Below are positions 431 through 37,826 of a stretch of DNA of 64,000 nucleotides, piece after piece; position 1 is the stretch's first letter; the number at the start of each line of letters is the position of its first letter. The translations under genes were made by a program, and so were the position numbers. The notes under the pieces are model-generated. The model had not been told where the DNA came from. It did no database searches and was given only the letters and a program-made list of their open reading frames with translations. The DNA lies in the NCBI RefSeq assembly GCF_964275005.1, contig NC_092699.1, forward strand, positions 16,034,149-16,098,148. Reading direction: 5' to 3'. Origin of the DNA: Diadema setosum. Its lineage: Eukaryota; Echinodermata; Echinoidea; Diadematoida; Diadematidae.

Positions 431-449
431 ATCTCTCTCTCTCTCTCTA

Positions 450-2885: not shown

Positions 2886-2886
2886 C

Positions 2887-4920: not shown

Positions 4921-4925
4921 GTCTG

Positions 4926-4933
4926 TATAAAAG
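4926..4933 (+). promoter_or_regulatory. Candidate TATA box of receptor gene A
   Basis: TATAAAAG lies 83-90 bp upstream of the ATG at 5016. A start of transcription 25-30 bp downstream (about 4955-4963) would make the ATG at 5016 the first in-frame start and exclude the more upstream in-frame ATG at 4833. No initiator was confirmed. Confidence 0.5.
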
Positions 4934-5015
4934 CAGTTTCAATTCAAACTGCTATCAAAGTAATGCAAGAGCACAGTTGACAACAACAGCAATAACAAAA
5001 TTCTGGCTCTCTTTG

Positions 5016-8000: not shown

Positions 8001-11000
8001 GCTAGTAGGTTAACACAAAGGGAAACTTTATGCATGAGCGAACACGCTCATTTTTGCCGTCCAAGGCACAAAAGAAAAAATTGCAAAATTTGACATAATT
8101 TATTATTGTCTTTCAGTTGGCAATGCCCTTCAGATAACAATGACAACAAAAAGCCAGTTTAACTCAATGAGAGACATGAATGAAATAGCAAAAACAAGAC
8201 AAGTTTTTGTTCTCTTTATAACCTCAAACAAAAAGAAAGTGGGAAACTAAAGGGGGGAAATAAGAATTTTCTGTCAGCTTAAAGGTACTAGCCCACATTT
8301 GCAAACCCACGAAAATCAAAACTGCATAAAACAGGTCCAATATGACTTCAAGTACAAGTTATAACAGTAACATACCTCACCTGTCGCTCTTTGTCTATAC
8401 CATTCGATAAAAGAGAGAAAATCATCGTTTTAAAATCAATTTTCAAACCGGGTCATCCCGACCCATATTTGTCTATACCATTCGATAAAAGAGAGAAAAT
8501 CATCGTTTTAAAATCAATTTTCAAACCGGGTCAACCCGACCCAAAATCGAATTACGAGCACGGGCTATAGCTACGTACATTGTACATGTAACACGTACGT
8601 GGACCGGAGCTAGCGAGCGTTATACGCATGCATACGGATTACGGTGCATTTTCATTTATTTTTATGAATGTAATGGACTAATTGGAACGAAATTTTGCAC
8701 AGGTGTTACTGCAATCATACCCAAACTCTATGCTAACTTTGAGACCAATTGCTGCAGGTTTACAAATGTGGGCTAATACCTTTAAACTTCAAACGACATA
8801 GGGAGTTATGGCATAAAGATGATTACATAAACAGAATTTCTTTATTTCAGTCTTTTTACTTAGTAATTCATGAAATAAATTTAAGAGCAATATATTATTG
8901 ACAATTTTCCTAATTTGAAAACAAATTGAAATTTCTACCATTTTTGTTCATATTGCTGCTTATCTTACTTCATTTGAATTTGGGTTTGACCCAAGATTCT
9001 TCTTTTTTTCCCTTAATTTTGGCCTTTATTGATATTTTGGGCTTCAAAGATATTATGGAGATCAAAGGTTTATTTTTGCAACTTAATTAATGTATCTAAT
9101 TGTGTTAAATTTGTTTTTTGTTCTTATTGTTATATGGAAGAGCACTTACGCATGAATGACAACTTGTTCATTTTTGCAATTTTTACTTTTTTGCCTCGGG
9201 AGATAAAAACAAAGGTGTTCACTCATGCGTAAAGTTTCCCTTTTCATTGACCTACCAGGCTGATAGCCAATCAAATTACCTTCAATATGATATATAATAC
9301 ATTAAGTTTTAGCCAAATATTCCGTGAGAAATGTAAACTTGAAAAAGTGTTTACTTTCTTTTTTTGCTGAGTGTATATATACACATTGGATGTATCTAAT
9401 TCGACATTTGTACCTCTGGAAAATTGCCTCTTTTCAACGAAGCAGTTTAAAGTCATATTCTAACATTTCCATTCTGTGGACCACGTTTTTTTAATTTCCA
9501 GAGATTGACGTTCCAATCGTACATAGAAAAGAAAGATTTGTATTCTAAACTCTTAATATTTAGAATAGACCTGTGGATTTCCAAATCTCGACAAGATACC
9601 CTGCCATGTCGTGAAACATTTATCATGTAGCAATATTACAAGCAGATTGATCACTTTCTTCTCGGTGTCCAAGATAGAGCTAAAGTATATTGATATTTCA
9701 TACTGGATAACTAAGTTGCCTATCATTGCAAGAGATGATGTCACCTTACTCCCTCGTTATTCTCCTTTTCATAACTCTTCTTTCACCTTTTGTATACTTG
9801 AAGGTACATCGCTATCTGCCATCCCTTAAAGTTCAGGATTTACTGCACGACCAGACGAACGAAGATGAAAATGATTGCAACGTGGATTGGCGCGTTTCTA
9901 GCTGCGATACCAATTCCGCTTAACATCGGGGTAAGAGATCCGAGAGATACACGTGGTCCTATAGTAGTTTAATCTGTAGAGAATAATGTTCTCCCCCCCC
10001 CCGCCTTTTCCTGAAATGAGGACGACATGACAGTCTATCTAATCTCACACCAATTCAGAAACTTACAACTCTGACACTCCGATATGAGCAAGTTTATTTA
10101 GATGATAATCAGGGGCTTGTTTCATAATAAAGATTGAGTCTAAGATTGCGATTGATGCAAAATTTACGCTAGATCTGTTGTGAAATAAGTTTATGTGCTT
10201 TAAATCAATCTTTATGAAACGGAATTACGATCAGAACTGATTCCACGCTTGATGCACTGACTTACGCTCAATAAATCGAGCGTAAGATCAATCGCAACTC
10301 CTTATCATACAGGATCCAAAATTCAATGAAATTAACTGACGCCATAAAGTTCTACGTATAGACTGTTGCGTCAAGCAGTTCTAACCAGGAGGTGACTTGT
10401 TAAAAATCAACGTCGTTATGATTGAAATGCCATTTGATTCAGTTATCTGCTGGTATAACATTTATTGTGATATAAACACACCCTTTCAAAACTGACAGAA
10501 TTCTTTGAACATTCCCATCATTGGTATGAGCTGTGAACCAGCCGTCTATTCGTCAGAATAACCACTGCCTTGATATGGAAATATGGGTGATTTTCCTATT
10601 CCGAAGTTCCAATGTTATCCGAAAATGAAATACACGTTCTTCATTCTGAAATGCACAAGTTCCGAATACCTAAATAAGATGTTCATTAATTGAAAATGAA
10701 GAAAGAAAAAGTTCGCTGATCCAAACATTTGTTACGTTAATTCGGAGGTTCGTTATTCCAAAGATTAGTAATTTCAAAAATGAAACGAGATCTGTTATTT
10801 CGAAGGTTCGTTAATCCGAACATGAAAAGAAAGTGCATTCTAGCGAAATTAGCGAAACTTCAAAATGTCAGAACGTCTTTATTTTTCACCCGATTTTGAT
10901 CAAAATTTTACCGTTGCATTCGTATGATTTTACTCTTTCTTATCATGCAGACTAACTAATATTTGGACTGGATTTCCCCTTTAACCAATGTAATATCTTA

Positions 11001-14000
11001 GATTATTCAATGTGTGTATACATAAGTGTGACTGTGTGTGTTTGCGCGCGTGTGTCTATCATCTATGTCACTGGTCTATGTGTGTGTTCACAGCGCGAAT
11101 ACCGGTATTTTGCTATGATCTTCAGAACACAAAATCAAAAGCAGGTTTAAGTACATGACACAGTCATAACCACTATTTGTTTAACCATGTGATACATAAC
11201 TATTGTTTAATAACTCTTTGGAAACAAATTATATTTTACCTCGATAACAATGTCATATTCATCTGAGGAAATAGTAGCCGCAGCAACAGAAGCTAATTCG
11301 AGACTGTATCTTTTCCAGTTTTTCTTCCATCTCTCTCTACCTATATCTCTTAACATGGACCTGGTCAGACTAAGTATGGTGTGTCGGTGATTAGCGCGGA
11401 GTACAGAGGAAAGACTCCCTATGCCTGCCGAGGGTTAGCCGGCTTCCCCTATTGGTACGTGGTGGCAAAGTTGGTCGACGTCAGTCTCGTTCTCTTCGTA
11501 CTCCCAGTCACCCTCACCGCGATCATCTACACCGTCATGGTCTTCTACGTTCGCCGGAACAACCGCAAGTTTGTCAAGGTGATGGGCAACACTCGACCTC
11601 CCGTTTATGATGTATAATAGTTCTGGCACGTTTCCACGACAGATCTTCCATAAACCTTTGATCCTGTCGCCTTTACGCACAATACTTACGATTGTCTGAT
11701 TCTTTTTTTCCGGTTGTATTGATTTATAAAATAATATATGACGTAAACTTACAATGGAAGCAGGGTCTATATCTGTGTTGTAATCATGAGATCGTGCACC
11801 TCGCAGTCAGATCAATACCAGAAATAAAGTGAACAGTTGAGTTGTGCTCCCAGTACACCCACAAGTGTTTTAGATTAGAATAATGGTATCACAAAATGAA
11901 AAGGCCAGGTCATTAAAAGAGGAAATCCGCCGAAAAGAAGAATAAACTTCAAAAGAAAGAGAAAAATATTCCCCACAGAACGATACAAAAATGACAAAAA
12001 TTAGATTAGAAATAAGGAAGATATGATATTTTGGAATTTCACATTTTTTTTTTTCGGAAAACACTTCTTGAACAGTCGTTATGAATTACGATATTCAAAT
12101 CAGCAAGTTGACGATGTCATGCTATCACAAGTTCTTATTCCTTTCATACACAGAAATGACCCAGAAGAGAAAAACCCAAACAAATATTTCAGCTATATAT
12201 AAACTTGCCTTGAAAGCAACCTAAAATGAAAAAAAAAATGTTAACTTTGATACATCTTGTTATGGGAACATGCATTTACTTGTATTAGCTAACAATAAAA
12301 TTTCTTTCTTTTTTTTAGAATTTCAGCTACAACATACATGAAAAATTGTGAGGGTATGACATCATCAACTAGCTTATTTGAATGTTTTCCAAAAAAAAAA
12401 ATAAATATCATAATATCTTCCTCATTTTCCATCCGATTTTTGTCATATTTGTATCGTTCTGTATAGAGAAGATTTTCTATTTCCTTTTAATTTCGTCTAT
12501 TTTCGGGGTGGATTTCCTCCTTAACCCTTTGCGTGCTTTGAGTACCGAATAAACACAGAAAACCTCATAGCATTGTACACACTGTCCGAAGTCCCTGACA
12601 CAGAAAGTGTTAAGGGGATTTGAGGACTTTATCAAAATAATGATTCTCTCGAAAGTGAAATTGATAACATGAGAGATCGAGCAACCGCGTGAACAAAAAA
12701 ATGAATGTAATCAAGAACATGATGATGACCCATTTTCCCGCCAGATGTCGAGCCAAGAAAATAAACTCCGATCACACTGGAAGACAGCCCGAGTGTTGCT
12801 TATCATCTTCGTGGCTTACGTTGCTTGCTACGTCTTCTCGGTTGCTCACATCCTGGTCCAACTCTTCGACCCTTTCAACAGATCAACAATCCTCGCACAC
12901 GTCAAGAACATAGGTGGGTAATTAGCTCACCTGAAGCGCGAAGCCCACTGCTGGTTGGGATATTTGTTTGTTTCATTTTGTTTTGTATTGTATTGTTTTG
13001 TTATTTTTACTTCACTTGCACCTATTTTCCTTTCATTCCACTTAATCATCCGCTTTATTGAATAATAACTGAAGTAGCCTAATACCGGAAACGGATATAA
13101 GAGACTGGTGCTTACAACTATCACTCCAAACCCCGTATACAGCACCACAATGCATTTGTCATATTTGTCATATTGGAGACACTGTGGTATAGTGGATACG
13201 ACGCCTGGAAGTGGATACGACTCCTCCCATTCGGAGGACCCAAGTTCGAATTCAGTCCAGCGTAGGGACTTTTTGTAAAAACAGAGTATAAAAATCGCGT
13301 TTACAGAACATACTCAAATTTCTTGGGAATTAAACGTAGTAAAAAAAAAAAAAATCACCGTGAAGGACTATGATCATAACTTATGAAAACTTCATTTTAC
13401 TGTATGTACGGGCAGAGCGACTTTCACTTTACCATTCGTCTGAAATGTATTCATTAAAAGCTTAAACGTGATCGCATTGTTCGAGCAATAAAAATTATTC
13501 TCATATTGCTAAAAAGCATAGAAGAAAGGGAAAATGTAAGGTTTACTAAAGATATGTTTCAGGGGGCACACTCGAGGACGCGAGGCTACCATCTATACAC
13601 TAAATTTCCTCATCAGTAAGTATTAGTGTATAGTCAGGGCTCGACACTAACGGTGGCCCGGTTGCCCGGGGCCACTAAAAATGAAAGTCGGGCCACCAAA
13701 TTTCAAAAAAGGGCAAATTTTGGTGGCCCGCCTGGGGCCACCAAAATTTTGGGAAAAGCATGTTAATAAATTCGTAACTTTTTGCGCCGGAAATTAGCAG
13801 ATAAATTTGTTCAAAGGATGGATGAACAGGACTGAATGAATGCCTGAGAGTGAGTGTTGCAAATTTGTTGAGGTTTATTTATGAGTAGATATGTCCAACT
13901 TTCAATTCTTACTATGATAAAGCTTAAATATTTGACTCATCAAAAAAACAGGACTTTTAATGTTTTGAGGGGTTTTTTTTTTTGCTTTTTTTTTCGGGCC

Positions 14001-14651
14001 ACCAAATTTTCCTCTCGGGCCACCAGAAATGTGAAATTATGAATCTTGGTGGCCCCATCGGGCCACCAAAAAGAAAAGTTAGTGTGGAGCCCTGGTATAG
14101 GTATTATAATGTATATTAATAATGTATTATGATTTTAACCGCATTTTCAGGTATGAAATTGACAACTTTTAGACAAGAAAAGTGCCTTTATTGCTCATTT
14201 TGGTCTTTAAATAAGGGGGGGGGGGGCAAAAACTCGTTTTGCCCCAACTACCTACCACTACCACTAGTGGTAGTGGTTGTTCCCTCCTTGTGAATGGCGG
14301 GAACAAAGATCGTCGTATATGGAGGTCTTCAAGAGCAGTAAAAATTTTCTGTGTCGTTCTACGCTCAAGAGACGTCATTTTTGTTCTCCTTGTTGTTGTC
14401 ATGAGGGTAATTATGAATATTACATCATTTGTTTGTTTCTTACAGGTCTGTTGTCCCCATTCGCCAATAGCTTTATGAACCCTGTCATCTATTTCATCAT
14501 CAACCCCCGCTTCCGGGTAGGTCTCGGCAAACTCTTCGGGCTGAGCCCGAGCAAGAAGCAGGACAGATCTCAGGTCAAAAATAAACCAAATACCGCCGAA
14601 TCGGCAAGTAACAAGACGGATTCGACCGCTGTCCCGTCTAAAGTTATCTGA
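5016..14651 (+). CDS. Class A (rhodopsin-type) GPCR, gene A, six coding exons
   Basis: Predicted seven-helix plasma-membrane receptor of 406 aa. Exons: 5016-5355, 6724-6892, 9804-9930, 11369-11578, 12745-12913, 14446-14651; intron phases 1, 2, 0, 0, 1. The N-tail has about 70 residues and an NGT sequon at N30. TM1 is about 72-94 with GN; TM2 has LNLAAGD with D115 (2.50). C145 (3.25) should pair with C232 in loop 2. TM3 ends in DR/Y at 169-171, split by intron 2; TM4 has W197; TM5 has P258 and Y266. TM6 is atypical: the FxxCWxPY core reads F304-V-A-Y-V-A-C-Y, lacking Trp6.48 and Pro6.50. TM7 has NPVIY (350-354) after ANS, as in peptide receptors. Loop 3 is short. The donor of intron 2 is GC (CAG|GCAAGT). 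The start at 5016 fits the TATA box; 4833 is an alternative. The nearest relative seen is gene B downstream. The ligand is unknown; a peptide is a guess. Confidence 0.88.
6458..6648. mobile_element. MITE in intron 1 of gene A
   Basis: Short inverted-repeat element bounded by CAGTGGCGGATCCAG and CTGGATCCGCCCCTG and flanked by a CGCCGG direct repeat (6452-6457 and 6649-6654). No coding capacity. CAGnGGCGGATCC-type ends are commonly seen in hAT-like elements, but a 6-bp duplication is shorter than the 8 bp expected for hAT, so the superfamily is left open. Confidence 0.75.
6893..7811. repeat. Tandem duplication starting at the 5' end of intron 2
   Basis: Two direct copies, about 6893-7365 and 7366-7811, at high identity with a few small indels. 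Each contains AAGGCGCTCTATAAATG followed by an ATT-rich run (a SINE/LINE-tail-like signature), an (AAAG)n stretch and about 300 bp of unique sequence. The first copy begins at the splice donor of exon 2 (GCAAGTA). The copies end in ATTGTAAGTA at 7363-7372 and 7809-7818, so the junction shares AAGTA microhomology. Confidence 0.9.
8283..8781. mobile_element. Nested TTAA-flanked MITE
   Basis: Bounded by AGGTACTAGCCCACATTTG and the inverse of AGGTATTAGCCCACATTTG, with TTAA on each side (8279-8282 and 8782-8785). The TTAA target is typical of piggyBac and Kolobok elements. It sits within the larger TA-flanked element, so it inserted later. It carries a 78-bp tandem duplication and codes for nothing recognisable. 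Confidence 0.85.
8391..8546. repeat. 78-bp tandem duplication inside the nested MITE
   Basis: Two nearly identical copies starting TTGTCTATACCATTCGATAA at 8391 and 8469, each ending with a small hairpin of the form GGGTCATCCCGACCC or GGGTCAACCCGACCC. Confidence 0.9.
10555..10830. repeat. Degenerate GGTTCGTTATTCCGAA minisatellite in intron 3 of gene A
   Basis: Diverged repeats built on TTCGTTAATCCGAA and GAAATGAAATA motifs, for example around 10741-10760 and 10803-10820. It is the inverse of the AACGAACCTTCAGAATAACG family found in intron 3 of gene B. It lies about 540 bp upstream of the TM5 exon. Confidence 0.65.
12521..12613. mobile_element. Miniature TTAA element (about 93 bp)
   Basis: Bounded by TTAACCCTTTGCGTGCTTTG and AGAAAGTGTTAA and containing GAGTACCGA. 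It matches a better-preserved copy at 22076-22165 and a partial copy near 20345. It is too small to code and looks like a very short MITE of a TTAA-targeting family. Confidence 0.65.
13171..13285 (+). mobile_element. tRNA-derived SINE-like sequence in intron 5 of gene A
   Basis: An A-box-like TGGTATAGTGGATACGACG is followed, about 55 bp later, by a B-box-like AGTTCGAATTC, with no pairing acceptor ends. GTGGATACGAC is duplicated inside the head (13192 and 13210 areas). The body motifs of the other two SINEs are absent, so this is a different family or a head-only copy. Confidence 0.6.
13635..14094. mobile_element. hAT-like MITE rich in GGGCCACC, intron 5 of gene A
   Basis: A 460-bp element with ends CAGGGCTCGACACTAAC and, inverted, GTTAGTGTGGAGCCCTG. 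A GTATAG direct repeat flanks it (13628-13633 and 14095-14100), compatible with a decayed 8-bp duplication. The subterminal regions hold repeated GGGCCACCAAA motifs in both orientations, which could serve as transposase-binding sites. No reading frame was recognised. Confidence 0.75.
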
Positions 14652-16899: not shown

Positions 16900-18732
16900 A
16901 ATACAAAGTTCGCCTGCCTTACTATGTATAATTACTATGGACAATAGATGGAAGTATGTCGACGACCTGAGCATAGTCGAAATCTCTCACAAAGCCGGCC
17001 ACAACAATTTGCAATCTCATATTGAATCTGTTTGTGAATGGAGCAATGCTAATTACATGAAACCCAAGCCTGAAAAATGCAAATTGATGCACTTCACCTT
17101 CTTGCGTAATCATGTCCCCCCTCCGGTCATTACTATTGGAAACAACCCGATTGAAGTCGTATCCTCCATGCGCATTCTTGGCGTTACCATCCGATCAGAC
17201 CTGAGATGGGATAGTCAAGTACGGGAAATGATCTCGCGCGCCTCTCGGAGACTTTATATTTTGTGCTCACTCAGGAGAAACGGAGTTACCCATAATGATC
17301 TGTTGTTTGTGTACACCGTGTATATCCGCCCCCTTCTTGAATTTGCTGCCCCAGTGTGGTGCACCAACCTGACTCATGAGCAGTCACAAGCGTTGGAAAA
17401 GGTGCAGAGGAGAGCTCTCCGCCTCATCAGTTACCCCTTATATCTCCCCTATAATGATGCTCTCCGCGATATGAACATCGAGTCATTGTCTGAAAGAAGG
17501 AGTTCCCTTCTCACTAGTTTTGGAAAATCCCTCCTTCGCTCTACCCGTCACCGTGACATGCTTCCTCCTCAGCGTTCCCAACTCATAACTCGTAGCCTTA
17601 GGAACTCGTTAAATATCGACATCCCCCGAACCAGAACACAACGTTTCAGAAACTCAACAATCCCTTGCTTAGTGAGGCTACTCAATGGCTTGTAGACTTT
17701 TCTACTCATCAATGTGCAATATTCCTGACCTTTTGTAAAGTATTCTCTTTGTGTTTTTGATAGTAAATTTCATGCGTATTTTGTTCATGTCCAAAAGGTC
17801 AAGGTCAATTTCAAGTTCATATCTCTGCCCATCAATGATTCTCTTGAGAGTTTTGAGGTCGTGGGGTCAAGGGTCAAGGGTCAGGCTGGATGCTATAAGT
17901 TTGTTGTTTGGTGCTGATTTTTTTTTTCTCTTTTATGTTTTGATGCATGGATTTGTGATAGTTTCGGTGTAAGTTGAAACTTTTTGGATTTTTAGATATC
18001 TTGTTTTTTATTTAATAACTTGGATGTTCATTGATTTGGACTTGGTGGGTGGGGGTGGGAAGCACTCAATACCTTTGTGATAAATACACAGTTTTTAAAT
18101 GTTTTGTCAACTGTGTTGAAATATTGTTTTATATTTGAAATGTGCTTTAGACTTGTTTTGAGAACCACAATATGTTGTGCCATAACGGCGTCTTGAGTTT
18201 GTTTACATTCATATGATTGTGTTTATGATGCGTATCGATAATTAAGCTCAATTATTTTATTGTTCAGAAATTTGATTACTCCCTGCTCAGTTCAGTTACT
18301 CAATGATTTTTACAATCATTTGTTTCTTTACATGTGCAATATTTTTCAGTATTCGTAATCCATTATTGATAATTTTAATACATGCATTTTTATTGAGGGT
18401 TAAGAGGTCAAAGGTTTTAATCAGCGAAAAAGAAAATATTTATGCATGTACTGTTTGTTGATAATTTCCATTTGAATTTTAGGGTCTTGGTTCAAAATTC
18501 AGGGATTTGAGGCCGGGTTGAAATATCAATGTTTTATCTGTTTGTGCAGTGTTTCCGTCATATTCATATTCATATCGATAGCCAATTTCACAAATATATA
18601 TATATATATTTATTTTGTACAATGTTGTATTTCTGTTTTAATTGTAAAATGAACAATTTCAGCTGATGAGCTGCATGTTCTTTTTTATTGTCAATAAACC
18701 TTCATTGAATTGAAATTGAATTGAATTGAATG
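16900..18732 (+). mobile_element. 5'-truncated LINE with complete 3' tail
   Basis: An open stretch at 16937-17695 encodes about 250 residues of the C-terminal part of a non-LTR reverse transcriptase. It starts at the YVDD box (WKYVDDLSIVEI) and continues with ILGVTIRSDLRWDSQV, YIRPLLEFAAPVW and LEKVQRRALRLISYP. This resembles jockey/CR1/L2-like pol proteins; the clade was not resolved. The 3' untranslated part runs about 1 kb and ends with AATAAACCTTCATTGAATTG and a short (TTGAA)n array, the usual end of such LINEs. The 5' two-thirds is missing. The ORF is intact to its stop codon, so the copy is fairly young. Confidence 0.85.
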
Positions 18733-23104: not shown

Positions 23105-26100
23105 ATGGAGACATCAATGCTTAACTCGACGATCGAATTCATCGAAGGGGAAAATGATTCCAGCATCGTCGAAGAAAAGACGATTACGCCGGCTGGTAAG
23201 GCCTCGTTCGAAGTCCCCTTCTTCATCACGATGCTCCTCTTTGGAGGGGTCGGTAACCTAATCGTCGTCGCCGTGTATGGTCAGAAGAAATTTAGGAACT
23301 CGAACGCAGCTCTTCACATCTTGAGCCTTGCTGCGGGTGAGTGAAAATATTAATTTTTACGTAGTAATGTAATTTGATAAGTGTGCTTTTTTAAAAACTA
23401 TATATTAAAGATTATCAAATAGGCATACAGTTTATCAAAAAGGGCACATGATGTCTAACCTGCCACGAGTAGACAAACGTCGCATGAGTTTATGATTGCT
23501 TCTTTATTATCAAACGATGCACTACCCATTGATATTTTAATCCACTACTATCTCCTTAATCAAACCGAAACTGTCGACGAGCTTATTCGTACCCACAATT
23601 TAAGATGGCCGAAGTTATATCACTTAAACATAGCCCGAGTGATGAAGATTCCAACGGTGTTTTTATGGAGTTCTTGATGATAGAAAAATATAGTTGCAAG
23701 GGTGTTTGTGAACAGTTTCACTGGATTTTCTTTGTCTTCCTCAAATGTTCATAAATTCTGTGGGTGCGAGATTGTAGGTATTGCAGGTATTTCAGAAATG
23801 CAATTCGACGTCGAGTTCAAGTTAAATATAGTGAAGAGAGTGAAATTAGACAAACCGTGTGGTAAGCTTCAAGGTTTCATTATAATCGAGCTTGAAATAG
23901 AAATTAAAAAAAGGTCGTAGAATACTGAAGTTTCAACTCTGTCTTATCAGACCAGTTGTATCAAAAGCAACTACAAGCGCAAAATGGAAAACGCCATCAC
24001 CGCACAAAATACCACTTCTCTTACTATTTTCTTTATTTTGACAAAGAATTGATAAGAATAAGCTGTATCATTCAAAGAATTATTGTTGTCTGATAATAAA
24101 TTAGCAACTTAAGAGCAGGAGCTTGCCGCGTTGCTATTAGTCCATGGGCCAAGAGGCGAAAAATTGGTTATTGGTACCATCTCAGGGGGCAATACCTTTT
24201 TGGTGTCATTTTGTTTGTTGGGCATAGATATGCTTATCAAGCTATGATAGCATTTCCAAATGAGTAGCTTAGTCCTAATAAATGAATTTTTAACCAATTT
24301 GGGCTCGTTTTTATATCCCCATACTTCTGAATCGAGGCTAACCGCTACAGAAACAAGAGCACGGTCTTCTGTATGTCCATGGAGCTCATGGTATGTCCAC
24401 AGGTGTTCTGTTGTAAACGCGGTGCGCTTAGTATTTATTCAAGGCGGCGAAGGGAATATCCAAAGGGTGATGCTGTCCAGAGCTAAACGCGGTGCGTTTA
24501 GTCTTTATTCAAGACGGCGAAGGGAATATCCAAAGCCTATGATACAGTGCATATCCCTTTATCTAAAAAAACAAACAAAAAATCAATTCCTCGTGGATTT
24601 TGCCGTATTTTTTATTATTCATCATTTTCCGGTGAAAACGCTAGGGTGAAAACACTAATGCCACGCCAATGTAGCTTTATTTCCATCAAACAATGAACCG
24701 GTACACTACAATACGTAATAATAAATACTATTGTAAATGAGCAGAGTGATTTTTGTTTAAAACTGATGTATTTGTTGAGAGGGTAGTATAAAAACAGTAT
24801 AGATAATTCCTTTAAATAGTAACTTTAGATATGATAACGGTACATTGTTTTGTTTTGTTGTTGTTGTTGTTGTTGTTGTTTTTTTCTTTTTGCAGTGTTT
24901 ACCAGAACTGATATTGTTGTTAATCAGACAAACACACACACACACAGACACGGAAACAATTGTCACACAATTAGTCCATGGGCCAAGACCCGAAAAATGG
25001 GTTACTGGTACCACCTGAGGTGGCAAGTTCTAGTTGTGCATTTTGAAATGGCATATAATATTATCTAAGGAATATTATTTTGCTATAAAAGTATAATAGC
25101 ATTTCCAGAGTAGTAGCTTAGTCATAGATTTCAGCCATCAACCCGACCAATGCCAAATATTTTTGACGCTCTTTGACCAAAGACAGGCAGAGTGTGACCT
25201 TTGAAAATTTCCACTAGGAATTGTTTTTTTGTTTGCTTTTTAAATAAAGGGATATACACTGTATCATTAGCTTTGGATATTCCCTTCGCCGTCTTGAATA
25301 AAGACTAAGCGCTGTGGACATCGTAACCCTTGGATATTCCCTTCGCTGCCTTGAATAAAGACTAAGCGCACCGCGTTTACAACAGAACACCTGTGGACAT
25401 ACAGAAGACAGTGCTTTTCTTTCTATAGCGGTTAGTTTCGATTCAGAAGTAAAGGGATATAACAGCGACACCAAACGGGTTAAAAATTCATTTATTAGGA
25501 CTAAGCTACTCATTTGGAAATGCTATCATAGCTTGATAAGCATATCTATGCCCGACAAACAAAATGACACCAAAAAGGTTTTGCCACCTCAGATGGTACC
25601 AATATCTGGCCTGGCCCATGGACTATATTATATAGATACCCAAAACACGATTTTTTAAAAACAAAATCACCATTCACAAAAATGGAGGCTTTCTAACACT
25701 AATTGTTTCTTTAACCTTTCGTGTGTAGCAATCCAGGCATTTGCTCGTCTTATGAAAGAATTTTTCATGTGAAATAAAACCACCTCAAAAAATTTTAATC
25801 TTTTTTAGTCATAATGTAAAACATTATCGTGCCAATTACTGTCTTCGTAACAAATTTTCTTTTTTATTATTTCAACAAAATCACTTGAAAGAGAAGATGT
25901 AAACTTGGGTCACTCTCAAGATTGCGTGGGAAGAGATAACGACCTTTTAGTTCGCCATAGCCGTATGAGACGTCTGGGCAATATTCTCATAAAATCTCAC
26001 TCATCAATCATAATGAAGATTTTGATAGCAAAACGGATTAAGCACCATTTAAATGACAAAATGAAATATTTCCAGTGATACATCACTTGCTACATAACAA

Positions 26101-29100
26101 GGAATATTCTTGAAATACGGGTAAAAAATGTGTTTCATGTTTTCCTATTATTTCTAACTTTTTTAGCAGCTTTAATGGCAAATATCTCAAATTATGAAAA
26201 ATTATACTTAATTCATTTTGCAAGCAAACTCTTCTTTTTCCGGTCAGGGGATATCTGCCTACTCATCTTCGTTGTCGGCCTACACATCTCCGAGTACTAC
26301 CGGGTCACATGGTTCATCTTGTGGCGCACCGATGCCCAGTGCATCCTACACAGATTCGCTCGCTTTGTCGGCTTCAACGTCACTATTTTTGAGATGATGG
26401 CCATAGCAATTGACAGGTAAACTTGACTTATTATGTTTTATAGTGTGAAACCCTTAATACGGGACAGGATCTGTCATAAGCTTGCGGGTAAACACAAAGA
26501 GAGGTGGATGATGATAATGCGCTAATGAGTTATCTAGTTCAATTGTCTAACTCTTTTTGAAGACCTTTGGTAATGCTCCAGTTTAACGAAGATAAAGACA
26601 GACTGGCCGCCAATCTGTAAAACTATGTCCCCTCATTGTAGCATTTCACTCAAACACTCATAATCATATTGGTGTTCAAAGCTGCGAACCTACAGCAACT
26701 ATTCTTTGATACTTTCTTGTGTTAAAAGCTACGGAAATAGTAACAATGTTTCTAATACGTGCCAAACAAATTGAAATCAGTACTACTGCGAGCATAATAC
26801 TGGCGAGATATCACTATGATTAAACGCAACTTTCAGAAATTGCATCGTAAAACCGTTCCTTTGTAAAACTCGGAATCATGTCAGTGAAGCGCAAGTAATT
26901 CATGCACACCAACTGGTACAAACTGAGGAGAATAAAATTAAATAATTTGTGTATGTGTGGTTCTAATATAAGAGAATCATTAAATACAGTACCGGTTCGA
27001 TACATTGAAAACAGCACTGGAAAGTACTAACGGAAAGATAACGGCAGCAGAAGGTTTTGTCATAAAATTGTAGTGCAAAAATTCTGGCAATCTCGAAATT
27101 TCTCTGTGACAGCTGATGAAATACATGAACACAAGAACAAACAAAGAAAAGTGATTCAAGTGATAACATTGCAGTTGCATGATCAAATTTACTCTTAGTT
27201 CTAAAATAACAGAGTTCCTGAATAACATAATCACAAAAGATATTGAAAAGTGCCCACCACAGAAAGGAAAGGGGAAGATTTTTCTCGTGAAATTGCATCG
27301 TCTAAAAAGAACCAAAAAAAAAAATCCTTCAACAAGTTTATCATTTTCTATATGTGGCTACGCATGTACGATACTAGTGCATGTAGACAGGTACAAAATG
27401 AAATTATTCAACGCACAAAATGTTTCCGATTTGCATCGTTAAAAAAAAAAAATCTTCCAGGAAACACTGCTTGACAAAGAATGAACACAGGGGTACTAAC
27501 AAAGAATACTGTTTTACGTAGGACAATGATGGCAGTTGATTTGGTACGGGCTGCTCTCAGGTAAGAGAGTTATTGAATGTCGAAAGATGTGGAAAGTGTC
27601 GTTCGAATGATACTGTAAGCGAAGCGGAATAATTTCTTTTGATACTGAATCGTGAAACTTCTTCTTGAAAACTCAGAATTAACGCACGGCAGCGAATGAA
27701 CACAGGCACAAGCAAAGTAAAATGACTCAAAATCGGAAGTGATGTCAGTTAATTGATTGGGCCTGTTCCATATGTGTATATGAGATTACTACTAGTATCT
27801 CTCAAACTACAGTAATGCACATCATCAAACGTCATTTGTCGGGCATGTGAAACGCACACCAAGCCAATGAAGCAAGGTGCAATGCACCAAATTGTGTTTG
27901 TGTGTTTGTGTTCAGTCATAATCTTTACGAACAAAAAAAACAACAACCATAAAATGCAAGTAGACCACATAGAACTGCTTTAAACTTTAGCTGTTTAACC
28001 TCGACGATAGTACAATGTATAACCCTAACTGAGTTAAACTTCGAATCAAGGACCGCATGAGCTGTGACATCTCCCGTGACAAGATGCTTTGTAGCTGGCA
28101 TATCATGTCGAGTTATCCTCAGCGTTCCTAACCAGAAGTTGTTGTGGAGCAGACTTCAGTTGTAGCTCATTGAGTAGAGTGTCGCAGTAATCACAACCAT
28201 GTGAACGCAATAACCAGGAAACTTTTGGATAAGCTTGACACAGTGTCAAGCGCCGAATCATCTAAAGAAAACGAGACTTCGGATTTATAGAGCAAAAAAA
28301 TAAAAAATAAAAAATAAAAATACGTGTAGCAAATGTTTCTGTCTTCTTGGTTCACCTTGATGACACACAAGTCTTGGATTTTATCATCGAGTGTCATTTA
28401 GCATGATAATTACAACGAACGAATTCGTAGTCAGAGAGCGATTACACTTATCATCGACGGTAAGTTAACTCTGTGAACATGGTCACATCAAAATCCCACG
28501 TGCACATTGTTATCAACAACTTTTTTTTTTTCAGATAATGTACGGTGTCACCCAACGGCGATGAAGAAGTGAAGAGTTTGTTCGCAAAAACCGATAAGTC
28601 CATATTTGCCAAATGGAGATATTTGCGATTAAAGGTTCAGAAAAATAAAGAGTATCATAAGAAAATGTATGGTTCTTTTGACCATAACTTCATAAATGTA
28701 CCTTTATAGTGACCAATATATCATTTAAAATGGTATTATTTTGTACTTCATAACAGAGACCGTACTTCAAAATCTTCAAAAATGGACTTATCGGTTTTTG
28801 CGAACAAACTCTTAAAGTGCATTGCGCCGTTTGTAAAGACATGTGGTTTTTACTAACGATTTGTAATTTTGTTGCGGATACCCTATTCAAACTTACCATG
28901 AAATGACTGCACAAAACTTGGTATGTACATGACTTTTGCAACGGCGCCTATATTTATGTCTTGTGTGGACTAGTGTTGTTTCCTCAATAAAGCTTAACGA
29001 GAATTCTACATAATAAGAAATGCGTATTTTTAGTTTGGAAATAAATTAATCAAAAATAAGGAATGGATGTATCCATCAATATAATAAACACCTCGTTCTT

Positions 29101-29112
29101 TGCATATTCCGT

Positions 29113-29143
<31 letters not shown>

Positions 29144-32100
29144 GCTTTGTTTTTGTTTTTGTTTTTTTCGCTTATGAATAAACAGGACAAAAATAATTGC
29201 TCTACTCCCCTCTATCTTTCTCTGTAAGTTCGATTGATGTTGGCCCTTCTTAATAAGCCACGCGCAAAATCGTACGGGGCCTACATGCTTATAACGTACC
29301 CCACCTGAGATTTTATTGAATAAGCTTTATTAGAATAAAATGATGCTGTCACAACTAATTATTGCGGAATCGTTTCACAGTGCATAACAACCTACACATA
29401 TCTGGACATGATATTTCATCATAAAGTAGACACAATAATGCTGAAACATTCATAGAAACTAGAAATGTCCTTATGGCGACTGGTATGCCTCTGCCATAAT
29501 GCATGGTTCTGCTAATAGGTCTATACTACAATGTCTTGGCAATGTGTAATGACAGTTTCACATGGTTTGTCACAAACGTGTTGAATGTTCACTTTCCTTA
29601 AACTAAGTTTGCTATATTGTCTAAGAATGCAGGTATACATGTATTTGGGAATTCCAGGGTTTTTGCTCGACTTCTGACTCTTTTATATGTTTATGCATTG
29701 CATTATTTTCAAGGTACGAAGAAAAAAGGTAATTTCAGTATTAAATAGAAAAAACTTTTGCATTTTATTATGGCCTTTGACCCTTGACCTTTAACCCTAT
29801 GACCCTAAAATTTCCAAGAGAATCTTTGTCAGGTAGAACATGCATAAATATGTACTAAGCTTCATAACACCTTGAGTCACTTTCAAGATATTTAGGAAAA
29901 AGTGAAATATAGCACTTTCACTTGAGCTTTGACATTATTATGTTTGACCTTTCACCTTTTGGCAGGAAATTTCAATTAGGTAATACATGTATATATTTCC
30001 ATTAGGTAATACATGTATATATTAAGGTTCATGAAAAATCCTGCAAGCATTGCATAAATATGAGGGAAAAAGTGAAATTTTGAGGAGTTGACCTTGACAT
30101 TTGACCCCTAACCTTTGACCCATGACCCCTAAATTCCCTAGATAGCCTGCCAGCAATTTCATGTATATGTACCAAGTTCCATGAAGATATCTTGAAGCAT
30201 TTGCGAGATATGGAGAAAAAAAGTGAAATTCTAACATTTTCACCTGACCTTTGACCTTCTGACAATTGACCTCATGACCTGAAACTCTCTGGAGAATTTT
30301 CATTTGGTAGTACATCTATACTCTAAGCGTCATTAAAATACCTTCTGGCATTACATAGATATGGAGGAAATAGTAACATTTTCAGCATTTGACCATGACA
30401 TTTTGACCTTTGACCTCTTGCCGTTTTCACTCAAAAACTACCGAATTAATTGCTCCATCATACGTCATTCTTGGACCAAGTTAGGTGAAATTTACCTTAT
30501 CGAATCTCGAGTTATCGCGTAAACGGATAAATTTTAGAGTTAACGTTGACCTTTGACCTTTGGCCTCTAGTTGATTTCACTCAAAGACTAATCAAGTAAT
30601 GGCCTCATCATATGTCATCCTTGGACAAAGTATGGTGAATTTGCTTAAAATGTCTTGAGTTATCGTGTAAACGGATACAATTTCATGATTTGACCGTGAC
30701 CTTGACCTCTGGCTGATTTCACCCAAAATCTAATCAAGTACTTGCCCCTATCATACTTCATACTTGGAAGTTTGGTAAAATTCCACTCAATATTACTCAA
30801 GTTATCGCGTTTGGACGGACATTGTGGTCGTACGGACGTACGGACGTAAGCACGGACAGACGCACAATCCGAAAACATAATGCCCCCGGCACCCTTCGGG
30901 CTGAAGCATTAAAACGCTGTGATATGTAAAATGCAAAAGTTGGTAATTCCTTTCCATGAAAACAAAAGTCAATGGTTTATACAACTTGCACAATACATGT
31001 ACGTGCCAACTTACAAGGAACCAGTTTCTTTGTACTCCTGTCTTCATAAAACCTATCAGTCAACTTGTTTTCTGGGTTTTTTTTTTCTTTAAGATTTACT
31101 GTCTGCTTAGCAAGGATAACAATCCAAAGTAGATAAAAGATTTTCAGTACGTTTGGCAATTAAAACTCCACTCTCCAGGTCGCAGCACACAGCCTGTCTG
31201 AGGTGTGATCATGGACCTAACTTTGCTAGGTCCATGGTATGATTGAGACGGTGAAGAAGGGCCGGATTATCATACTAAAGACGCCAAATATAAGAACCAT
31301 ACATTATCCCCAATTTTTAGTGAGCAAAATAACTAAAAGGATGGCAAAATGTAGGAACACACAAAGAATGCATGTAAAGACGAGCGTGATTTTCCAAGGG
31401 CGAATGTATAAGTGACATGATTATTTGCTTTTCGTCTTTTTTTTTTCTTATGTTACGACCACAATCACTCTGAGAATGATCGCACAAAAGAAACCATCAA
31501 CTAATGTTCAGGCGGTTTATTAACAGTGATATTGTGGGTACATACTCGTAATCGGTTTTCACATCAGTACAATAATGATCAATAGAAACAATTACAAATC
31601 GGTTATAGAATCACTTACATATTATGTTATCAAGTAGTCCTTTGAAAATGTTCAGATACGATGTTCGATGCACCGATGAATGATCCTTGACGCACCGATG
31701 AATGATTCCTCCGACGTAACTCCAAAGGCACAGGTTGCATTAATCCACAGTATAAATCCGGGGTAAAATCCACGATAGATGCCCACGGTATAATGTTCAC
31801 AGCGAAACGTGTAAAATCCAGACGTTATGACGACCACGTCCAGTTGATGCGTTGAATGATGATTCACTTCACAATGTCCAGCGAGGAATCCGCCCGTCAC
31901 AGCTTTGCCGTAACAATGTCCGTTGACATTAAAATATGGATTCTGTCTCCAACGTAGGCAAATTAATTCTCTGCAGGCAAAATGTCTCCCAAGCCTTATC
32001 TCCATAAACACAGTTTGTATAGCAGGTCAGCAGGTAACACAGGACTGATTATAACAAGTCGCTTCAGAGCCAGAAGTGACGTAACTCTCAGAGCAGAGGT

Positions 32101-35100
32101 GTTAGGTACTCTGCCTACCTCAGAATTTCTCCGGCTTATATACTATCCATTCACCCCTTTCTAGTACATTCTCTCATTTTCTCCAACCTGGGGCCACATA
32201 CCTGAACATACTAGCAAGTCCAAATTCCAGGAATCCTGGATGACTCACTGCCTAATATGTGCATAACATCATTGCCAAAATTAACTACCAATCACATTGG
32301 GTTACAAGGGCAGTGCCTCACTCAGCCAGCACTTCCTAGAATTTTCTGGAATGGGTTAAATCATTCTAGATTGAGTGAGCTATAATGTATTTCCTGTCAC
32401 ATGCATACATGTACTGTAGCTACATTGTATACCATGTAGAAAATTCTCCACTGATCTGGTCAGCCTGTATGTACTATATCTATATCATATAGAATGTTCT
32501 CCATTAATCTGGTCACCCTGTGTACATACACATTAAACAACCATGCATACAGCCTTGATACATGTACATAACTACTTGTGTGTACATTTGTGACACTTAA
32601 AATGCAGATATCTGGCTGTCTGCTTCCCTCTCAAGTTCAAAGTTCACTGCTCTCCTGAAAAGACGAAGGTCAAAATCGTCATTCTCTGGATCCTCGCTTT
32701 GATCACTGCCATCCCTGTGGTTCCAAACTTTGCGGTAAGCACCACGATTAGTTTTCATGCGTCTCATGTTATCTGAATGCATTTGGTTCGGTTCTTATCT
32801 GAAAGCAAAAACCCTACCCAGTGTCTATCCATGATTACTCTAAGATGTGTGGCGCAAACATTCGGAACATACCCGAATGTTGTTTTACAAAATGCCGCGA
32901 TGACATCTGGGTTTTTCATGAATATCATGGATAAAAGTGGCAGTGTTTGTGACAAAGAAAATAATGCTGTTTGACTCTACGAGATATAACTTTTACAGAG
33001 AACTCAAAGCTGTTTCGTAAAAAGAAAATTGAAAGTTGTGCTGACGTTTGTTTTCAATGTAGGCAGCCGGAAATCTAAAACGTAACTTTTTTTGGGGGTA
33101 TACAATTTCGTCATTCGAAAGCTCTGCGACAAACAGGAATGTTGCTTCGACAGAACCCTTTTACTTCAAATTATTTTTGCGTCTTTCCAGAAAACAAAAT
33201 ACTCATGATGACATAATGGGTTTTCATCGTTCTGTATCACGGAAGTGTAAACTTTAGGGGATGTGTACAATTGCTGTTGCTCATTTATGTTCAAGGAGTG
33301 TCATATTACATTGTAGGGGTGAGTATAAGTATAGAAAAATCACCATGAAACATAATTGCGTAGGATAGTGTATCGCATTTATTGCACGTATGAGTTGATA
33401 TACGACTGATATAAACATGACTGATAGAGATTGTGACCCGATAGCGTAGAATGTAAGGGGTTTAAATCCAGGCAGACCCAAATTAAAAGACAGCCAATTT
33501 ACTGTTTTCCTGACGATGTTCTATTACAGGAACTAAATGAATAGATTCTAATGAGTTACTTTGTTTGATTCATATTTTGCGTGTGTCACTTTTAAACGGT
33601 TACATTTTGTTATTCCAGATGTTCGGAAGATGAAATTAGGTTCAACATTCCAAAGGTTTATTCGTATATCCGAAAATGAAATAAGGTTCATAATTCCGAA
33701 GTTTCATCAGTACGCACCGTCTTTACAACTTTAGATGAACGAACCTTCGGAATAACGAACCACATTTCATCTTCGAATTAACAAACCCTCAGAATAACGA
33801 ACCTTATTTCATAATCAGATAAACGAACCTTCAGAATAGCGAACCTTCAGAAAAACGAACCTTATTTCATATTGTGATTAACGAGCCTTCAGAATAACGA
33901 GCCTTATTTCATTTTTGGATTAACGAACCTTTACAATAACGAACCTTCAGAATAGCGAACCTTATTTCAATTCAATTCAATTCAATTCATTTTATTTTCA
34001 TACTTCTCATTTATGAACATTACAACAGAAACCAGACAAGATCTTTTACCTTGTGAACAATGTGCAGAAAACAAACAATATACATGGTGATAACACAGTA
34101 ATTACATGTAATGATAACTGGTCAAAATCGAAATCGAAATGGCCGGGGTTGATGAAAGAGAAGTATGACGGGACCAACATGAAAGCTAGCTTGTTTGGCT
34201 GTAAGCCCCGATTAATCAGTGTTTGTGAAAAAGAAACGGAGAACGGATAGAAGATAAGACCAGAATGATGATGTAAGGTTGCCAAATTTTATGTGAAGAA
34301 AAAAAAAATAAGAAGAAGAAAAAGAAGAAGAAGAAAAACAAACAAACTATACTTTAATATGAACTTACTGTGACCGAGCCATCATTATTATAAAGCCTAC
34401 TTTGGTATATATACTAGTACTATAAACTATTGCTGCATTAAAACTATCACTAGGATATGATCAGTAAGACACAAAAAGTAACATGTACAGCTATTAAGGG
34501 TGGGATTTCACGGAGCACGCGAACGACTTGCGAAGGACGCGAATGACAAAATCCAACATTCGGAAAAGTTTTTCTCCGAATGTTTTCCGACAATGAAGCT
34601 GAAAACTATTCTTGTGCAATTTGTGCGAAGTTTCCACGACGTATGTGCGAATGTCGTGTGTATCATTGCTAGAGTACAGCATGTTACGTACACGAAGAAC
34701 ACGCGACGGAAATGCGAACAACGAAAAATTTTCAATAATCATGGGAGAAAATGTACCCAAGGAGAGGTGGAAGCTATCTTGAGTTGAATTTTTTTCTTTC
34801 CTCTATTTCTCCTTTCTTTTTCTCTCGTTTCTCTATCGTGTGCTTGCCTACATTTTTTTTTTTTTGCTAGGACATATCTCCACTCGTAAAGCATTTGATC
34901 TTTTTTTTTTTTTTGCAGTTCCTCCAACACATAATCTCTATAGTTCAAATGAAATTTTACATACTTTAGATTAATTTTATGTGTATTCTGCGATTTTTTT
35001 CTTGTATATCAAACATTTATTTCTCTTTGCTAGTCTTTAATTTCTTTTGTTACTATAATTGTTAATAATTGTTTGATGTTTAGATGTATGCTACGATTTT

Positions 35101-37826
35101 TATTTGTAGAAAACGTATAGGTCATACATCCCCCAAACGTGCGCTAAACGTTCGCGAGAATGTCTCAAAAGGTACGCGAACAGTTTGCGATTACGTCGTA
35201 AAATGATCGGAAAAACTTCGCAGATTTCGCGTAACACACGCGAGACATTCTCCAAAGTTTCGGAGTCTGTTTGGGGTTTCACGAACATTTTGCGAACATC
35301 GCGCGTGTCTTGCGAAGGTCTTGCGCATATGACGAGGCTTTAAAGACACTTTCGAGAACAATTCACGAGCAAATCACGACCAAGTGTGCGGAAAAGATTC
35401 GCAAAAAATGTCAGACTTTTTTGAAATTCTCGCCGAAGTAAAAACGACATTCGCGAACAATTGACGACGCTTCCGACCCCTCACGTTCGTTTGGCGATCT
35501 TTTGCAGACTAAAATACGAATGCTGGATTTTGCCATTCGCGTCCTTCGCAAATCGTTCGCGTGCTCCGTGAAATCCCACCCTTTAAGTCATTTGGTGCCT
35601 GCCGTCAAGCTCTGCATAGAAAGTTAGAGACTGGTAGAGGGAAAGAGGAAGAGAGGGAAACGAAGTAGAATGTGGAATTGCTAATGATGAATTCAGAGAG
35701 CCTGATGGCAAGACCATAAATGGAATCTGCAACGTGTTGACAAAATGTTTGATTGGACAATAACATACCACAGTATTACATAAGACATTACGACTATTCA
35801 GTGTCTGCAAAATATGCACTCAATAAAGACTCTTTGTTAAGAGTCATATTCGGATCATATTCGGATCAACGAACCTTCAAAATAGCGAACCTCATTTCAT
35901 ATCCAGATCAACGAACCTTCAAAATAAAGAACCTTGTTTCGTATTCGGATTAACAAACCTTCAGAATAACGAACCTTATTTCATTTTCGGACTAACAACC
36001 CTTCAGAATAACGAACCTTATTTCTTTTTCGGATTAACGAAACTCTAGGCACATTGATTTTGTGTGTTTCGGAATAACGAACACCAACCCTTTTGACCTT
36101 CCATAGACGAAGTACAGCGTGTCATCGTTTGATGTGAACTTTCGCGGAAAGACTCCGTTCGCCTGTCGTGTCATCTTGGATTTTCCTGATTGGTATCTCG
36201 ACTTCAAGATCATTTACGTCAGTACCGTCCTCTTCTACGTTCCCATCATCATCACCGCCATCATTTACGTCATTATCGTCGTCTACGTGCGCCGAAACAA
36301 CCAGAAATTTGCAAAGGTTGGTTGTTGATGGGACAAGGTCTGTGAAGTATCACATAACACAGGTTTAAGTAAATGTGAGCCACGTGTTGGAGGTTGGTCG
36401 CCGTATCAAAATTACAAGTTGATGGCCATTGTCTTTAGCATACACTTGTCCATTTTGATGTATTCGATGTACCATTTTGAAATTATGAAACGATGAGTAA
36501 ACTTGACCGAAAAGTTATTCACACAATCTAATTCAGTACCAACGCACCAGCGGGATATATTATAAAAGATCTTCCTTCTTTAAAGGGCAATAAGTGAAGT
36601 ATACAGATGAAGTATTGAAATTGGTCATTAAGCCGCGGGACTCAAAAGGAGAGGGCAATGTGAGTTCATTGATTGCTTATTTACATGTACTCAATAAAGA
36701 TACGTGTTTATTCATTTTTTTAACTACCAATGTAATCTTAATTGTATGACTCGGTTCATTCTTAGATATCCAACAAGGATGCCAATCGGCTGCGATCTCA
36801 CTGGAAGACGGCTCGCACGCTACTTGCTGCGTTCGCCCTCTACGCCGGTTGCTATGTTCTCCTCGCCACCTACACACTCGTCCAAACCTACTCACCGGCT
36901 GCTGTCAATCCCACCATTAAAAATTTAGGTAAGTTCAGATTAGGCGACAGTGCATTGTCGGATACAATCATGATAGTGAAATTCCGATATGAAAAGTCCT
37001 TATGTAACGAAATACAAACTAAACAACAAACTATCTTCGTTAATTTAATCGGAACAAATTCCATTTTGGTATAGTTGCAGCCCTTTTATATTTCATAAAC
37101 ATAAAGTTATACAAATGCAAAATGTTCATTAAACTCTTAAGAAACACAAATATCTTCTAGATGCCTAATCTACCTACTAAATTTTGCACATAAACATTCA
37201 TGTTAGAAGATGAATTAAGTTGTTGAGCGTTTTGGTTGCACTGTGAGTTTAACTGCAGGTAAAATATTGATCGTGGCAGAGTCATGTCCACAAATTTTAT
37301 AAGTATGAGTTCTGTTCTTTTTATCCCCATGAACACCGTTATCCAACTAAGTGATCGAGATATCATAGTTTTATGAATTTGTTTGTTTGTTCTTGAATTA
37401 AGTCACGCAATATGAAACAATGTAGTTAAGACAATTCTATCTTGAATATCTTCATGACACACCGAACAACTTTCTTGTAATCCTCTGCTAGGACTCCTGG
37501 TTCCCTATGCCAATAGTTGCATGAACCCTGTCATCTATTCCATCGTCAACCCGCGATTTCGCCGAGATTTTCGCGCGCTCTTCTGCTCGGCCACCGCGTC
37601 GAAGGGAAAGAACAAGAAGTCGGCGCGGAGCGACAAGGATAATTCGACGGGAACCCGGCTGACTGGTGAACGCCTAGATATGTCTAATCAGTCGATGCCA
37701 AAGAGCATTGACTGCTCGGTGTCCGAGGCACCAAAGACTGACGTCATTTCCGCTACTTCCGGTCACGACAACCCGTCGCTCGTCGTCGATGAAGATGGTG
37801 ACGAAACCAAAAACCAATCCGTTTAG
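23105..37826 (+). CDS. Class A (rhodopsin-type) GPCR, gene B, six coding exons
   Basis: Predicted seven-helix receptor of 411 aa, tandem paralogue of gene A. Exons: 23105-23336, 26248-26416, 32608-32734, 36107-36316, 36766-36928, 37492-37826; intron phases 1, 2, 0, 0, 1 as in gene A. The N-tail is short (about 35 residues) with sequons at N7 and N17. D79 (2.50), C109 (3.25), DRY at 133-135, W161 (4.50), C196 in loop 2, P222 (5.50), Y230 (5.58) and NPVIY (312-316) are present. TM6 reads F269-A-L-Y-A-G-C-Y, so Trp6.48 is Ala and Pro6.50 is Cys. The C-tail is longer than in gene A (about 90 residues after NPVIY, Ser/Lys-rich; C332 may be palmitoylated). The intron 4 donor GTTGGT is weak. A solo LTR ends 12 nt before exon 3. 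All exons are open, so the gene appears live. The ligand is unknown. Confidence 0.88.
24138..25624. mobile_element. Fold-back element with arms of about 450 bp, intron 1 of gene B
   Basis: Inverted arms at about 24138-24600 and 25200-25624 begin and end with TAGTCCATGGGCC/GGCCCATGGACTA. A third copy of the arm start lies in direct orientation at 24971-25128, so one copy appears inserted in or rearranged with another. Within each arm a unit of about 70 bp containing GGCGAAGGGAATATCCAAAG is duplicated. No transposase frame was found. A TAT on each outer side may be the target duplication. Confidence 0.8.
28572..28813. mobile_element. Small MITE, intron 2 of gene B
   Basis: A 242-bp element with inverted repeats of about 31 bp, starting AAGAGTTTGTTCGCAAAAAC on the left and ending with its inverse on the right. 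AAGTG occurs just outside both ends but not at a perfectly matching distance. No coding capacity. Confidence 0.75.
29459..30912. repeat. Dispersed repeat with tandem TGACCTTTGACC motifs
   Basis: About 1.45 kb, starting ACTAGAAATGTCCTTATGGC and ending near TAATGCCCCCGGCACCC. It consists of degenerate units of roughly 140-200 bp, each with a TGACCTTTGACC-like block followed by a (G)ATATGGAGGAAA or TTGAGTTATCG block, and ends with GGACGTACGGACGTA repeats. The class is unknown and there is no coding capacity. Confidence 0.65.
31451..32595 (-). mobile_element. Solo LTR, minus orientation, intron 2 of gene B
   Basis: A 1145-bp segment with TG...CA ends (TGTTACGACC... and ...TTTGTGACA) flanked by CTTA on both sides (31447-31450 and 32596-32599). 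Read on the minus strand it has a TATATAAG box (32135-32142) and AATAAA near its 3' end (31516-31521), as expected of an LTR promoter and poly(A) signal. No internal region is present, so it is a solo LTR fossil. The superfamily is unassigned (gypsy- or BEL-like are possible). The intact flanking repeat suggests it is not very old. It ends 12 nt upstream of exon 3 of gene B. Confidence 0.7.
33614..33965. repeat. AACGAACCTT minisatellite, first block, intron 3 of gene B
   Basis: Degenerate units of about 40 bp built on TTAACGAACCTTCAGAATAA and ACGAACCTTATTTCATTTTC. The first 100 bp (to about 33705) are in the opposite orientation, so the block is locally inverted. The array resumes at 35846 after about 1.9 kb of inserted elements. 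Confidence 0.8.
33966..34300 (-). mobile_element. 3' end of a LINE or SINE-like retroelement, minus strand
   Basis: Starts with (TTCAA)n followed by TTCATTTTATTTTCATACTT, which on the minus strand is an AAAATAAAATGAA end with a short (TTGAA)n tail. The tail style matches the LINE at 16.9-18.7 kb but the body differs. It is 5'-truncated with no coding region. It splits the minisatellite. Confidence 0.55.
34494..35585. mobile_element. TTAA-associated inverted-repeat element rich in CGCGAA motifs
   Basis: About 1.09 kb with inverted ends of roughly 65 bp: GGGTGGGATTTCACGGAGCA on the left and its complement TGCTCCGTGAAATCCCACCC on the right, next to TTAA at both ends with one extra base on the right. 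The interior has many TTCGCGAA/GCGAACA-like motifs. No transposase was recognised. Confidence 0.8.
35846..36075. repeat. AACGAACCTT minisatellite, second block
   Basis: Continuation of the array at 33614-33965 with the units GGATCAACGAACCTTCAAAA and TAACGAACCTTATTTCATTT. It ends about 30 bp before the 3' splice site of exon 4 of gene B. Confidence 0.85.

Follow-up and report, generated by a model that had tools for sequence, protein, structure and literature searches.

Can an exon still be found by the splicing machinery when a retrotransposon has parted the two halves of its 3′ splice site? The question is raised by gene B of the echinoderm Diadema setosum, one of two tandem rhodopsin-like receptor genes of common exon structure (genes A and B) in a stretch of 64 kb (contig NC_092699.1, labelled C15 here, positions 16034149-16098148). 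This whole stretch is called the window, and positions given with no contig are in its own numbering. A solo long terminal repeat (LTR) ends just ahead of gene B exon 3, with its insertion point between the pyrimidine tract and the AG of the acceptor. The insertion splits this acceptor, and we put the probability that gene B is mostly mis-spliced in this haplotype at about 60%, judging from acceptor models and predicted products. The locus most likely holds a young, splice-impaired, perhaps polymorphic allele.

A split acceptor and its predicted outcomes

The earlier note on this DNA placed the LTR at 31451-32595 between CTTA duplications, with 12 native bases remaining before a 127-nucleotide (nt) exon 3 at 32608, and all of these positions were confirmed. 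Its description of the LTR as replacing the acceptor environment holds for the position of the element but not for replacement: the native tract survives at 31428-31449, and the LTR with one duplication sets 1,149 bases between that tract and the last 8 intron bases. When the flanks are rejoined an ordinary-looking acceptor results, with a T-rich tract 10 bases ahead of exon 3. The same intron precedes the aromatic residue (Y or F) of the DRY motif in all six receptor paralogues. By eye, its acceptor is pyrimidine-rich in the five other than gene B, among them gene A, for which a normal acceptor had already been noted.

Acceptor strength was scored against 36 local acceptors, namely 22 dynein heavy-chain junctions and 14 receptor-gene acceptors, gene B exon 3 being excluded. 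The dynein sample was drawn from 8 of 18 wanted stretches; its 36 neighbouring exon pairs were joined by frame, length, donor and AG with the pyrimidine tract disregarded, and 22 were kept after nine were dropped for lack of a solution and five for unsuitable gaps. Paralogues E and F contributed no acceptors to the training set, the end of their exon 3 acceptor being like that of D. Two scores were used, a leave-one-out matrix of 27 positions and a combined score of branch motif (with assumed weights) and tract; 1067 intronic AGs served as background. By the matrix, the empty site has 8.76 bits, more than 19 of the 36 local acceptors and a level reached by 1.0% of the background, while the present site scores -0.91 bits, below all 36, with 28.6% of the background at least as high. 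By the combined score, the empty site (18.1) stands above 33 of the 36 and no background AG reaches it, while the present site (4.2) stands above one and is reached by 38% of the background. Over 30 settings of training set, window and pseudocount, either none or one of the 36 true sites fell below the present site, and the empty site ranked above it in 28.

With so weak an acceptor remaining, most transcripts are expected either to lack exon 3 or to be spliced at wrong acceptors. As the earlier note had it, skipping shifts the frame, and we predict a stop at 143 amino acids (aa), shortly after transmembrane segment 3 (TM3). In the combined model 30 AGs in 31440-32700 outscore the present site, the leading candidate cryptic sites being 31475 (15.0), 32636 (10.6), 32165 (9.9) and 31958 (9.6). 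The strongest of these would pair the native tract with an AG of the LTR; its weak points are a long branch-to-AG distance of 55 and a plain matrix score not above zero. Its predicted exon is 1260 nt long. Exon definition may disfavour an exon of that size, in which case skipping of exon 3 would be likelier than use of 31475. The predicted products of 14 alternative acceptors stop at 138-179 aa, again shortly after TM3. Among the 62 AGs in 31440-32680 only one, the native AG before 32608, gives the full receptor; exonisation of the LTR in frame was rejected, since no other AG of the 62 keeps the receptor.

These results bear on two outcomes that had been proposed, working signals supplied by the LTR, or skipping or poor splicing of exon 3. 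The 30 settings and the comparison with random segments given below favour the second, and the pair was incomplete in that site 31475 was missing from it. Likewise, the claim that the branch point must lie in the LTR is right for correct splicing to 32608 only, as the native tract can otherwise act on 31475.

The history that we propose is that an element, probably a Ty3/gypsy element of Gmr1 type, landed antisense to gene B, 8-12 bases short of exon 3, and that recombination later reduced it to a solo LTR. The insertion parted the AG from the native tract and branch region and left a weak acceptor, and most gene B transcripts of the insertion haplotype would skip exon 3 or take wrong acceptors (31475, others in the LTR, or 32636). 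Either course would truncate the receptor soon after TM3, and correct splicing by way of LTR-borne signals would be a minority product.

Several points weigh against mis-splicing on this scale. The present site has a 53-base AG-free zone, such as 14 of the 36 true sites but only 5.6% of the background AGs have, together with a passable branch motif and a TG-rich tract, and TG-richness is seen in some of the true local acceptors as well. Two of the 36 true sites have a pyrimidine fraction no higher than the 0.50 of the present site. The empty site ranks above anything from 0 to 23 of the 36 depending on the setting, and in two of the 30 settings (receptor acceptors alone with 43 positions, the longest window) it falls below the present site and above none of the 36. 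The model was trained on only 36 acceptors, and its branch weights are assumed. The intact frame of gene B would fit a working gene; a recent insertion explains it equally well. In human data, of 23 loci that have Alus within 100 bp, only 5 are described as showing a splicing effect, which at one of them favours inclusion (PMC6326789).

The LTR end as a substitute acceptor, and other explanations

The alternative that survives best is normal or near-normal splicing of gene B at the native AG, with a functional branch point (ATAAC at 32571, position -37) and a TG-rich tract furnished by the end of the LTR. We hold this to be possible, though not likely. In its favour are the AG-free zone, the candidate branch site and an intact frame of 411 aa, and it agrees with long-term constraint in the receptor family (dN, nonsynonymous divergence, about 0.3 against dS, synonymous divergence, about 2 or more, with dS saturated). 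Against it, the acceptor score lies below all 36 true sites, and sequence taken at random from introns does as well in most cases: in 19,775 trials, window intron segments set beside the same 12 native bases matched or beat the LTR in 65% (matrix) and 72% (combined), and 11% had an AG-free zone as long as that of the LTR. By these scores, therefore, the LTR end behaves like ordinary sequence and not like a special acceptor. Nor is there any sign of later tuning, a candidate that was rejected because the LTR does not differ from the family majority after 32175. A related idea, that the antisense U3 (unique 3′) end of the LTR is a ready-made upstream half of an acceptor, with its AG-free zone, branch site and UG-rich tract, is doubtful; if it were true, a receptor gene would depend on an element-derived branch point joined to a native AG. 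Gene-sense polyadenylation driven by the LTR was also considered and rejected, as the gene strand has two ATTAAA and no AATAAA, the AATAAA of the LTR being on the other strand.

It is improbable that gene B, as the tandem duplicate of gene A, had been silent or expendable before the insertion, which would then be neutral decay irrespective of splicing. Paralogues A and C and three more in the genome count in favour of this reading, but no other damage is seen in gene B: its six exons are open, with GT at the donors and AG at the acceptors, the donor of exon 4 being weak, and the 7tm_1 match (E 4.5e-36) and the constraint among genes A, B and C also speak against it. That constraint is long-term history and is silent on the period after the insertion. 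An assembly error that misplaced the LTR is very improbable, as no supporting point was found for it and it is opposed by the exact 4-base duplication, which is in line with the habit of the family, by native flanks that rejoin into a normal-looking acceptor, and by a left flank of 271 bases whose single genome match is itself.

Mis-splicing of gene B through a split acceptor is thus preferred here, and its features are collected in Table 1.

Table 1. Positions of gene B exons, LTR and acceptor features in the window
Feature	Position	Strand	Remarks
Gene B exon 1, coding part	23105..23336	+	from assumed start codon
Gene B exon 2	26248..26416	+	
Stranded native acceptor signals	31415..31449	+	upstream of LTR; candidate branch As 31415 (GTGAC) and 31420 (ATGAT); pyrimidine tract 31428-31449
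Left target duplication	31447..31450	.	CTTA, 4 bases
Solo LTR	31451..32595	-	1145 bases; own sense minus, antisense to gene B; ends TGTTAC...GTGACA
Strongest candidate cryptic acceptor (combined model)	31475	+	first exon base; native tract and first AG inside LTR; predicted product 149 aa
LTR end in branch point/pyrimidine position	32548..32595	+	best candidate branch A 32571 (ATAAC), then TG-rich stretch; matches family majority
Right target duplication	32596..32599	.	CTTA
Native bases before exon 3	32596..32607	+	12 bases, CTTAAAATGCAG, native AG last
Gene B exon 3	32608..32734	+	127 nt; DRY tyrosine to transmembrane segment 4
Candidate cryptic acceptor inside exon 3	32636	+	first exon base; predicted product 155 aa
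Gene B exon 4	36107..36316	+	
Gene B exon 5	36766..36928	+	
Gene B exon 6	37492..37826	+	

The LTR family and the age of the insertion

The genome searched comprises 912.7 Mb in 102 contigs (those named here being C15, C19, C20 and C21). On one contig lies a mitochondrial COX1 followed by tRNA-Arg and tRNA-Lys; by eye, this COX1 makes sense when AAA is read as Asn and ATA as Ile, a gene order and code that point to an echinoderm. The identity of 31451-32595 as a solo LTR had been made to depend on other copies in the genome, and at least 39 others were found; the segment is a solo LTR of an LTR retrotransposon. From 1122 first-look candidates 40 copies were scored, the window copy included, so that at least 40 copies exist at 94-100% identity, 38 of them covering the whole query and two lacking one or two end bases. 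The 40 copies listed comprise nine pairs (18 copies), which span 5.9-7.7 kb, and 22 single copies. The pairs fall into two size classes, of about 5.9 kb (four pairs) and 7.3-7.7 kb (five pairs). Of the 22 single copies 18, that of the window among them, are flanked by an exact target duplication, which has 4 bases except in one AT-repeat case with 8. One of the four single copies with no duplication (L075) bears a flank like a primer-binding site (PBS) and is therefore part of a longer element, the second LTR of which is absent from the matches listed. No internal element sequence lies beside the window LTR, its 271-base left flank matching itself alone in the genome and its right flank being exon 3.

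In the paired copies a PBS-like stretch, which we take to resemble tRNA-Pro, lies inside the 5′ LTR and a purine tract ahead of the 3′ LTR. The LTR-type signals of the window copy are on the minus strand (TATATAA at 32142, AATAAA at 31521), and a minus-strand LTR sense is also indicated by the paired copies, both in the order from PBS to purine tract and in coding direction; the LTR is therefore antisense to gene B, with the start of U3 abutting exon 3.

The family is probably of Gmr1 type, in which the integrase precedes the reverse transcriptase (RT). An inner gag piece of one copy has a SCAN-like domain (Pfam SCAN 8e-08, over the cut-off); in inner pieces, two pieces from two copies, a zinc knuckle is seen under the Pfam cut-off. 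An open frame of 652 aa in another inner piece contains Pfam integrase domains (within aa 117-467), followed by an RT start that was seen by eye only, at the end of the fetched piece, where no Pfam RT match was obtained. A SCAN-like gag, together with an apparent RT start behind the integrase, fits the Gmr1 group, which has been linked to SCAN (PMC4592553). This likeness in gag domain and in apparent gene order is limited in that the RT was placed by eye at the end of a piece and the two pieces come from two copies.

LTR-LTR identity within each of the nine pairs listed is 98.8-100%. Against the 39 other copies listed the window LTR is 94-98% identical, its nearest relative being at 98.0%, and it has six private substitutions and one private deletion. 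The high identity within pairs, the close relative and the few private changes suggest a young insertion, to which no calibrated date is attached, and it may still be polymorphic. No second haplotype with an empty site appeared, either as a further genome match of the left flank or as other near-identical gene B exons in a protein search in which 101 of 855 candidates were scored; the best other exon match among those scored is 72% identical and lies on C19. If the 1122 candidates are all taken as copies and the genome is assumed to hold a few hundred thousand introns, a few copies would be expected within 20 bases of an acceptor by random insertion.

Known systems and further features of the window

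Disruption of a 3′ splice site by a retroelement is a known kind of event, and the present case is clean and testable, and ordinary as an event. In NF1, Alu insertions in the pyrimidine tract (three) or the AG (one) of acceptors led to skipping of the downstream exon (PMC3219598). Gene B resembles these in having a retroelement within a 3′ splice site; it differs in that the NF1 cases are Alus in human patients with transcripts shown, while gene B carries an echinoderm solo LTR known from genomic sequence alone. In SLC2A9, a polymorphic Alu located 31-34 bp ahead of an exon increased skipping from 89.9% to 99%, a scrambled sequence gave more than 98%, and Alus are described as depleted within 100 or 150 bp of exons (PMC6326789). 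There too an antisense element lies near an acceptor, and the effect was independent of element sequence, but the SLC2A9 AG keeps more than 30 native bases whereas that of gene B keeps only 12 and no pyrimidine tract. With these precedents and so few native bases left, plain disruption is the default, though not a certainty.

Two further systems are less close. Mouse L1 elements offer splice sites and exonisation in antisense (PMC2176070), and the LTR of gene B is likewise an antisense intronic retroelement with candidate splice sites; its exon-side AG is native, however, and the element could give upstream signals only. In mouse agouti an intronic solo LTR within a VL30 element alters host gene function (PMC6677723), but that LTR sits within another intronic element and is not reported in the sections drawn on as splitting an acceptor. 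We met no description of an LTR between a pyrimidine tract and its AG in our literature search, and one may still be in print. As a natural experiment the locus has an empty site readable from the flanks, a precisely bounded element and one receptor-yielding AG among those examined. It would allow one to measure what separation of its 3′ splice-site parts an exon tolerates before being lost. The locus also marks a receptor-gene allele that is likely to be loss-of-function.

Gene A occupies 4833-14651 with six exons and gene B 23105-37826, with a 411-aa frame free of stops, the start codon being assumed in both. Gene B matches the 7tm_1 profile over positions 1-260 of 260, which makes it a class A (rhodopsin-like) G protein-coupled receptor. 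No second copy of exon 3 was found in the window besides that of gene A. Further paralogues are gene C on C19 and three more at C15:26.1-26.4 Mb. Pairwise over 167 codons, genes A, B and C differ at proportions of 0.24-0.26 of nonsynonymous (pN) and 0.69-0.74 of synonymous sites (pS), values that point clearly to constraint among them over a long history. Intron 2 of gene A has a GC donor (GACAG|GCAAGT, 6892-6898); the donor is GT in gene B, in gene C and in the three paralogues at C15:26 Mb.

The introns of gene B hold several repeats. Intron 1 has a foldback-type element at 24169-25604, made of four inverted-repeat pairs with arms of 60-211 nt that are 88-96% complementary. Intron 2 has near the LTR, at 30376-30768, a TGACCTTTGACC-rich tandem repeat of about 150 nt; by eye, similar wording occurs beside another LTR copy (L002). 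Arrays of a 42-nt unit of aacgaaccttcagaataacgaaccttatttca type lie in intron 3 at 33738-33977 and 35855-36043, and resembling wording was seen by eye in gene A intron 3 near 10600-10830. Elsewhere in the window, open frames at 383-2900 (minus strand) and 16901-17695 (plus strand) resemble, by eye, pieces of non-LTR reverse transcriptase. Among the dynein exon matches, three each on C20:22707120-22713613 and C21:714787-721032 have near-equal profile ranges and spacing, as would follow from a recent duplication or a retained haplotype.

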